From positions 124,001 to 188,000 of the forward strand of contig NZ_RCFQ01000002.1 of NCBI RefSeq assembly GCF_003665155.1: a DNA stretch of 64,000 nt, given 5' to 3'. This stretch comes from Mariprofundus sp. EBB-1. GTDB lineage: Bacteria > Pseudomonadota > Zetaproteobacteria > Mariprofundales > Mariprofundaceae. Below, piece after piece: positions 59,216 to 60,149 of the stretch (the stretch's first letter is position 1; the number at the start of each line of letters is the position of its first letter). The position numbers and the translations under genes are program-made. The notes below the pieces were generated by a model. It worked only from the letters and a program-made list of their open reading frames with translations. It did no database searches and had not been told where the DNA came from.

Positions 59216-60149
59216 GCCAGGTCTATCATTGATGCATTTTTCTCGGTGAATTCACCCTCTGTTTCCGTACAATTCTTCCCACTGTCGTAAAGTGAATATT
59301 AAAATAAAGCCCGATCTGGCTATAGCTGTAAGCTCCTGTTTGATATGCTGCCACGATAGCGTCGTCCCGCCCTTCATATAGCTCCGCTATTTCTGAAAGT
59401 GATTTGGCGGGAGGCAATTGCTGAACTTTTGGAATATTGCTGTCATAACTTGATCCTGATGCCTTGTGATGCGCATCTAATACGAAATCATCATGGCCAA
59501 GGTATATTTGTTGGCGTAACTCAGACCAGATACTTTTTTTACTCACGCCTTCAGCTACAAACGCTGCATACAGCTGCTGAGGGGGTGTGTTTTGCTCAGA
59601 GAAATAACTTAACACTGGCTCGGGCGTTAACAGGGAAGGTGTTGGATCTAACCCCGCCACCGCCCTGTAACTACTCCACTGCCATTGAGAAGCTTCGCTT
59701 ACCATGCCAGCACGTACAGGGTTCAATACCACATAACGTGATAGCTCCAGCAGATACGCATCAGCATCGACAAGAATTGCCTTATATCTTCCTTGAAACA
59801 GGTGTCCAACCCGATCATGCCTTCGATTGCTGGTTTGGGTGTAAATACCGTTAAGTTGGCGCATTCCCTTACTTAGATTTGCATGCGGTGTTTCAATGAT
59901 CAGGTGATAGTGATTGCTCATCAGACAGTAGCCGTAACAGATCCAACCCTTGTCGATGATAGTATTGCTTAAAATACGAAGGAAAATTTGACGGTCTTCA
60001 TCATCAACAAAAATATCGTTTTTGTGATTGCCTCTTGAGGTCACATGATAAAGTGCGCCCTCATATTCGATTCTCAAAGGTCTGACCATGAATATATGTT
60101 ATTCCATTTCACCAGATGCATCAATAAAGCTATAAAAAATAGACCTGGC
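59216..60149 (-). mobile_element. RAYT element with inverted ends
   Basis: The RAYT gene is framed by matching sequences. ATAGACCTGGC occurs at 60139-60149 and inverted as GCCAGGTCTAT at 59216-59226; ATGCATCAAT occurs at 60116-60125 and inverted as ATTGATGCAT at 59228-59237. On the left the two blocks are nearly adjacent; on the right they are 13 nt apart. The left block includes the last codons of the transposase. It looks like a ~930-bp unit ending in inverted copies of its own terminus. Confidence 0.65.
59226..60089 (-). CDS. REP-associated tyrosine transposase (RAYT, Y1-family)
   Basis: A 287-residue Y1 (HUH) transposase of the RAYT group: MVRPLRIEYEGALYHVTSRGN at the N-terminus, the HUH-type HYH in CLMSNHYHLIIETP (60-62), the catalytic Tyr83 in QLNGIYTQTSNRRH, RVGHLFQGRYKAILVD and YVVLNPVRAGMV. 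A C-terminal helix-turn-helix (QIGLYFNIHFTTVGRIVRKQ) is a subgroup addition. RAYTs act on REP hairpins and are usually single-copy genes. Inverted flanks agree with this. Confidence 0.92.
   Translation of the reverse strand: MVRPLRIEYEGALYHVTSRGNHKNDIFVDDEDRQIFLRILSNTIIDKGWICYGYCLMSNHYHLIIETPHANLSKGMRQLNGIYTQTSNRRHDRVGHLFQGRYKAILVDADAYLLELSRYVVLNPVRAGMVSEASQWQWSSYRAVAGLDPTPSLLTPEPVLSYFSEQNTPPQQLYAAFVAEGVSKKSIWSELRQQIYLGHDDFVLDAHHKASGSSYDSNIPKVQQLPPAKSLSEIAELYEGRDDAIVAAYQTGAYSYSQIGLYFNIHFTTVGRIVRKQRVNSPRKMHQ

Follow-up and report, generated by a model that had tools for sequence, protein, structure and literature searches.

A Y1 transposase gene enclosed by two-block inverted repeats

What kind of element is a single transposase gene whose own 3' end recurs, inverted, beyond its start, and how might its enzyme act on such ends? 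We asked this of a locus close to one end of a 64,000-nt stretch of DNA (the window, by which we mean the whole stretch analysed). The features discussed below are the following, with positions counted within the window; TIR stands for terminal inverted repeat and HTH for helix-turn-helix.

59,226-60,089, minus strand: TIRYT/RAYT-type Y1 HUH transposase of 287 aa (open reading frame; PF01797, E = 4.8e-12)
59,250-59,369, minus strand: C-terminal HTH-like domain, residues about 241-280 (AlphaFold2 helices and HTH_SB)
59,216-59,237, minus strand: downstream TIR in compact form, ATGCATCAAT-G-ATAGACCTGGC, holding the codons Met-His-Gln-stop (sequence)
60,116-60,149, plus strand: upstream TIR in expanded form, ATGCATCAAT, 13 nt, ATAGACCTGGC (sequence)
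60,126-60,138, plus strand: AT-rich spacer where the two blocks meet, exceeding that of the compact form by 12 nt (comparison with a sister species)
60,145-60,146, no strand assigned: predicted cleavage point in the upstream TIR, CC^TGGCCC (GGGCCA^GG in gene orientation), from duplication breakpoints of relatives
59,219-59,220, no strand assigned: predicted cleavage point in the downstream TIR, GGAGCCA^GG on the plus strand, from duplication breakpoints of relatives

Both tips run slightly further than the blocks themselves, that of the downstream TIR to about 59,213 (plus strand GGAGCCAGG) and that of the upstream TIR to 60,151 (TGGCCC). As described in the initial annotation, the two blocks occur in order and inverted at both ends, spaced by 1 nt at one end and by 13 nt at the other, which can be read directly from the sequence. 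Its observation that the same bases serve as coding sequence and as terminal repeat is equally correct: the compact copy, on the left, spans the codons ATG CAT CAA TGA, which specify the three final residues and end the reading frame. The tips (GGGCCAG and GGAGCCAG in the window, GGGGCCAG in the sister's copy) are near GGGGWSAS, not exact matches to it, and the window element itself carries no duplication of its tip.

The protein contains a HuH motif (N59-H60-Y61-H62) and a presumed catalytic tyrosine, Tyr119, within Y-VVL-NP; across 43 sequences, H60, H62, Y119 and N123 are nearly invariant and P124 is invariant. Its AlphaFold2 model has a mean pLDDT of 89 and contains C-terminal helices at residues 241-250, 256-262 and 267-280, a region where HTH_SB is matched with an E-value of 0.0017, a match that falls short of the curated Pfam cut-off. 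The closest PDB structure to the model is TnpAREP (4er8, E = 2.3e-7), with ISDra2 and IS608 next, and 4er8 was also the sole match (E = 0.0022) in a sequence-profile search with the window protein against solved structures.

Elements of this kind have been described. In the passages of Di Nocera et al. 2013 at hand, TIRtrons (their genes being TIRYTs) are Y1 genes with flanking inverted repeats unrelated to REPs; some of these TIRs share GGGGWSAS, some overlap the gene (3'ov), and for some TIRYT repeats single, dimeric or grouped copies are found in the genome (PMC3733652). According to excerpts of Quentin et al. 2018, 20 of 26 TIRYTs fall in TnpAY1 subclass 2.1, whose members have C-terminal HTH-like domains and near whose genes REP-like sequences were not found (PMC6006769). 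With TIRtrons as so described, the window element shares a Y1 HUH gene, long non-REP inverted repeats, an overlap between repeat and gene and the presence of further copies of the repeat in the genome. Its tip (GGGCCAG) comes close to GGGGWSAS but departs from it, and it further differs in that one of its two-block repeats is compact and the other expanded. With subclass 2.1, as far as the excerpts go, it shares the NHYH-type HuH and Y-x3-NP of its Y1 HUH domain, a long protein with a C-terminal HTH-like extension, and TIRs free of REP-like hairpins. The window element is a TIRtron (TIRYT; subclass 2.1), and an ordinary member of that class; the part worth pursuing is the duplications found at the repeat tips of its relatives and the cut site that they predict.

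Repeats lying over the stop codon are a family trait

Relatives were collected from a genus search, in which 17 of 23 genomes gave a match at E <= 1e-20, and from two phylum samples that overlap each other (29 of 299 genomes at 1e-35 and 63 of 396 at 1e-25). This yielded 114 RAYT records, 95 of which were retained as full length (at least 200 aa, with flanks). The threshold for calling a TIR was lowered from 28 to 26 so that the window element, which scores 27, passes. At this threshold an inverted repeat joins both ends in 68 of the 95 loci, and the ends are thus conserved in related loci, a point on which the initial annotation had made its reading depend; the other 27 loci have no TIR at threshold 26. 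When a score of at least 28 is asked for, 67/95 own pairs qualify, compared with 10/95 for direct repeats and 126/2816 for mismatched pairs. Overlap between the downstream TIR and the stop codon is seen in 50 of the 68 elements, and 26 of these 50 use the TGA of the tip itself as their stop (TGACCC in 24 and TGACAC in 2). Taken together, these counts make the repeat-over-stop arrangement a family trait, a compact packing that is general and not peculiar to the window copy.

The same arrangement is found in plasmid elements of Legionella adelaidensis and Sporomusa termitida (Bacillota). Matches at E <= 1e-20 were obtained in 10 of 72,556 plasmid records; five plasmid loci were analysed, of which three have an inverted repeat scoring at least 28 and three (L313, L315 and L316) a duplication that takes in the repeat tip, and a sixth record that was inspected has no annotated gene at the match site. 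A set of 50,697 phage records gave one partial match covering 44% of the query. No relative was found in viral contigs and no PHROGs family was matched.

Breakpoints of duplications near the repeat tip cluster at one position

The end windows of the 95 loci were searched for exact tandem repeats with a run of at least 11 and a period of 7-80, using a test first set on 56 loci that are all within the 95. Such repeats are present in 26/95 upstream and 23/95 downstream end windows, that is in 49 of 190 windows and 40 of 95 loci. End windows of other genes gave 2/48 upstream and 5/75 downstream (7/123), three of these seven hits holding a TIR-like core and one resembling a CRISPR array; windows inside transposase ORFs gave 2/426; and distal flanks, used as controls at the 56-locus stage, gave 19/660, eight of them from one CRISPR-like array. 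Of the 49 windows, 30, from 25 of the 95 loci, have the whole tip core inside the duplicated stretch. Among the other 19 are many in which the duplicated stretch abuts the tip or stops within it, and a few (such as L138, L172 and L194) in which it lies at a distance. One upstream flank (L142, G075:C13) contains a CRISPR-like array with repeats of ~37 nt and a period of 71-74, beside the TIRYT gene.

Breakpoints were scored for 109 of the 114 records, using the tip nearest the breakpoint and allowing variant tips. Among 44 exact duplications, 24 were set aside because of microhomology, arrays or the lack of a tip within 20 nt, leaving 20 near-tip junctions with zero microhomology. Eight of them fall at GGGGTCA^ or its equivalent, where about 1 is expected (the tip is GGGGTCA in six, AGGGTCA in one and GGTGCCA in one), four fall at GG^GGTCA, and the remaining eight are spread across six other offsets. 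For one given position of 21, the binomial probability that 8 of 20 share a breakpoint is 2e-6, before correction for the choice of that position. Twelve of those set aside lie near the tip with 1-3 nt of microhomology, and three of these fit GGGGTCA^ (L049, L128 and L189) while three fit GG^GGTCA (L174, L181 and L199).

Two loci, L315 on plasmid pSM-2 of Skermanella mucosa and L316 on plasmid pSR-1 of S. rosea, are orthologous, with proteins 92% identical. Their duplications differ, units of 17 and 28 nt being found at one and a single unit of 15 nt at the other, and such events therefore recur at one locus after the split of the species. No downstream TIR was found within 120 nt of the stop at these two loci, where the TIRYT gene adjoins a MazEF-type toxin-antitoxin pair. 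Different flank duplications were also seen, by eye, at each of two near-identical copies in another relative, G383, described below. We infer that the tip duplications may be repair scars left by recurrent cutting of the tip by the enzyme.

Another conceivable origin for these duplications is that the polymerase slips, in the ordinary way, on DNA that is G-rich or structured, the transposase playing no part. Some of them do lie in repetitive arrays (L128 and L132) or away from the tip. Moreover, passages of Di Nocera et al. note that REP clusters are also reiterated together with flanking DNA, and tip duplication therefore has a precedent in REPs (PMC3733652). However, 20 exact near-tip duplications with zero microhomology, eight of them at one and the same breakpoint, argue against slippage, which we regard as rather unlikely to account for them.

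Repair scars of cutting at the tip are the reading that we prefer. TIRtrons were named in 2013, and among open-access papers only two use the name TIRYT; the passages of these two at hand give no cleavage site or recognition rule. In particular, the available passages of Di Nocera et al. 2013 contain neither a cut site nor a count of tip duplications (PMC3733652). No account of tip duplications at RAYT or TIRYT ends was found in open-access titles and abstract openings, and an open-access text search combining GGGGTCAGG or CCTGACCCC with transposase returned, among the matches listed, articles that were all unrelated by title. Measured against the literature in that form, the duplication counts and the predicted cut position go beyond the published picture.

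A model for Y1 action on ends without hairpins

The reading that best accounts for the locus in our view, with a probability of roughly 0.78, is that it is a TIRtron in which the transposase recognises and nicks the TIRs that enclose it. A self-contained gene for a Y1 (HUH, single-strand) transposase is bounded by TIRs of about 25 nt, each consisting of an outer tip (GGGGTCA-G being the commonest form in the relatives, GGGCCA-GG that in the window) and an inner, lineage-specific block (TCTAT..ATTGATGCAT in the window), and the downstream TIR sits over the stop codon. The C-terminal HTH is proposed as the reader of the inner block because the repeat lacks a hairpin such as guides other Y1 enzymes, while nicking at the tip, at GGGGTCA^G, would fall to the HUH domain. 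Paired nicks, or their repair, would now and then mobilise the element as a whole and would frequently give rise to tandemly duplicated host flank and tip. The anatomy of the element, its family, mobility in a relative and the clustering of duplication breakpoints are established; the enzyme that cuts, the strand that it cuts and the role of the HTH are what we infer.

We further propose, tentatively and at somewhat short of even odds, that TIRYT enzymes repeatedly cut one strand of their own ends at GGGGTCA^G (CC^TGACCCC on the complementary strand, in which the TGA is often the stop of the gene), the HTH taking the place of the hairpin, that repair then stamps tandem copies of flank plus tip beside the element, and that the family has switched between hairpin (short proteins) and HTH (long proteins). 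If this is true, the tip duplications would be a genomic footprint of enzyme activity in vivo that can be read from sequence alone. The footprint analysis yields a specific predicted cut position, together with a proposal for how Y1 enzymes might act on hairpin-less ends.

Mobility in relatives and age of the window copy

In G383, two copies of 508 nt are 99.8% identical and have different flanks. Their identity begins at GGGTCAGG and ends at CCTGACCCC, bar a few similar bases, and is coextensive with the TIRs; their open frames are of about 153 aa and the copies are therefore shortened forms. G141, from the same family as the window's genome, has two copies of 897 nt that are 99.2% identical, one of which (L145) lacks part of the 5' TIR. 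The G383 pair shows that TIR-bounded units move in this relative. The initial annotation had taken the ends to imply that the element moved as a unit, and this is borne out for G383 but not for the window copy. No exact pre-insertion site for the G383 copies was found in the material covered (10 of 12 loci plus parts of two G383 loci), and the flanks of the G383 and G141 copies are rearranged or diverged.

Six TIRYT-related matches occur in the G383 genome (L174 and L183-L187, G383:C1), and, when sister genomes are compared, two near-identical copies appear to have exchanged their flanks, which suggests a rearrangement between the copies. Large tandem duplications are found at two other loci, L136 (282 nt at 97%) and L129 (617 nt at 92%). 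They start a short way outside the upstream TIR and stop within the gene, so that an additional, truncated copy of the gene lies upstream.

The window copy has a counterpart in a sister species of the same genus (G019), where the gene (92% identical in amino acids) has the neighbours that it has in the window; by eye, we take these to encode an ABC-F-like ATPase and a CBS-domain protein. The sister's homologue, in a separate assembly, has both repeats and the AT-rich junction spacer. The sister also has a repeat at one of the sites where the window's genome carries a solo repeat (C45) and a degenerate repeat at another (C63). Since the neighbours are the same and repeats are present at both sites, the element and the C45 and C63 solo repeats most likely predate the split from the sister. 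The sister's C45 repeat contains a 9-nt AT-rich insert at the block junction that the C45 copy in the window's genome does not have; the spacings of 1 and 13 nt at the two ends of the window element likewise reflect an insert at this junction, AT-rich and 12 nt long. The CBS-domain neighbour has 25 homologue matches in 16 of 23 genomes. In the 12 loci inspected among them (L100-L111), no empty site for the window copy was found, and the second neighbour adjoins the CBS gene only in the window's genome and the sister, both of which bear the element.

These data bear on the alternative that the repeats are immobile regulatory sites and that the protein is a domesticated HUH protein, vertically inherited and engaged in autoregulation or another cellular job. 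The closest homologue of the window copy being at the same place in the sister, two solo TIRs being matched at the same sites, and the scarcity of phage and plasmid matches reported above are all in its favour. Against it stand the copies in G383 and in G141, which are nearly identical although they occupy separate sites and which in G383 are coextensive with the TIRs, and the duplication of host DNA with the tips. We consider it improbable, and retain the interpretation of the locus as an element whose ends are substrates of its enzyme.

Hairpins in short relatives and HTH domains in long ones

Among proteins of 265-340 aa, 43 of 48 formed the set to which our Pfam counts refer, and HTH_23 was detected in 22 of these 43 at E <= 0.05; no HTH family was detected at the same threshold in the 32 short proteins scanned. 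Hairpins were assessed in upstream TIRs only, 66 of 68 having a recognisable core. For proteins of at least 265 aa, the mean stem is 3.1 bp vs 3.0 in shuffled sequences and a stem of at least 6 bp is found in 1/35, whereas for shorter relatives the mean is 4.8 vs 3.3 and 13/31 reach 6 bp, with the core often in the hairpin loop. This contrast, noticed post hoc, has a Fisher p of 1e-4 with kinship ignored. The sampled shorter relatives, which were not sorted into the published subclasses, thus differ from subclass 2.1, as the excerpts describe it, in often having hairpin TIRs whose loop contains GTCAG or GACGC. Short TIRYTs of this type include L065, L154, L202, L203 and L224 among others, an example being AAAAGGG-GTCAGAG-CCCTTTT. 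For the upstream repeat of the window element, the best stem enclosing the core has 2 bp (null mean 3.3).

The inner block of the TIR tracks the protein with a rho of 0.53-0.54 (38 rows, with doubtful tips at L044 and L190; nine loci without a tip by pattern were left out). Catalytic domain and HTH are followed equally closely (partial rho 0.20 and 0.18), so that a role of the HTH is not singled out by this test. Co-evolution specific to HTH and inner block could not be told apart from co-inheritance of the whole protein.

The absence of hairpins also bears on the possibility that the repeats are degenerate REPs and the element a REPtron. TnpAREP/REPtron systems of E. coli and S. maltophilia, in the portions of the source at hand, have in common with the window element the HUH Y1 fold (4er8) and flanking inverted recognition sequences (PMC8266576). 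TnpAREP is the closest solved structure, REP_Tyr_transpos is the sole NCBIfam match of the window protein, and short solo copies of the repeat exist. But that match scores 76.4, under the cut-off of 80, and the window repeats have no GTAG tag and no hairpin (the latter assessed at the upstream TIR). The same portions describe GTAG-tagged hairpins with cleavage at CT or CA beside the hairpin (PMC8266576), in contrast to the linear repeats and added HTH of the window element, and its genome has three solo copies compared with the usual >100 REPs given in the available part of another report (PMC2817692). We regard this possibility as highly improbable, and the assignment as a REPtron was rejected on account of the missing GTAG-tagged flanking hairpins and the sub-threshold NCBIfam score.

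IS200/IS605 elements (IS608, ISDra2) have the same Y1 HUH fold and, to our knowledge, are without terminal inverted repeats; their hairpins are subterminal, unlike the linear TIRs found here. In the excerpts of Quentin et al., their transposase has about 150 aa and a Y[IV]ENQ motif (PMC6006769). With 287 aa, Y-x3-NP and no hairpin in the upstream TIR, the window element was not assigned to this group. The likeness that the initial annotation had seen to REP or IS200-type recognition sequences is therefore right in that the ends belong to a Y1-transposase element, and wrong in its specifics, the ends being neither REPs nor IS200-type hairpin ends.

Copies of the repeat elsewhere in the genome

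Within the window, each block is found at the two ends of the element only. The genome to which it belongs (2.88 Mb, 63 contigs) contains three further compact solo copies, at C45, C63 and C1, those at C63 and C1 being one base each away from the window form; at none of the three is there a transposase gene between a repeat pair. Reversed-pattern controls for the compact motif gave 0 matches in this genome. ATAGACCTGGC alone occurs 4 times in the 2.88 Mb and its reversed control once. The motif is therefore present elsewhere, where the initial annotation had named its absence from the rest of the genome as what would speak against its reading. That the pair is a product of chance or assembly can be dismissed: its alignment score is modest taken alone (27 when the 150 nt upstream are aligned locally with the reverse-complemented 3' end, a value reached by 4 of 3000 dinucleotide-shuffled pairs), but the sister's separate assembly with both repeats and the three solo copies contradict it.

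The solo TIRs at G000:C45 (L003) and G000:C63 (L004) are intergenic, and the sister species has repeats at both positions. Going by gene names assigned by eye, one of them presumably adjoins a pterin-carbinolamine-dehydratase-like gene and the other lies a short way 5' of a tgt-like gene. The window's genome also encodes a second full-length TIRYT (L029, G000:C56:14027-14581), of 311 aa and 45% identical, which comes with a TIR of its own (GGGGCCAGGCTTTGG) and whose 3' tip is duplicated. Finally, the genome contains a RAYT relic (L006, G000:C32:15237-15284 plus flank) that matches the first 19 codons; its tip, CCTGACCCC, is followed by an exact tandem duplication of 16 nt, the breakpoint of which is compatible with GGGGTCA^.
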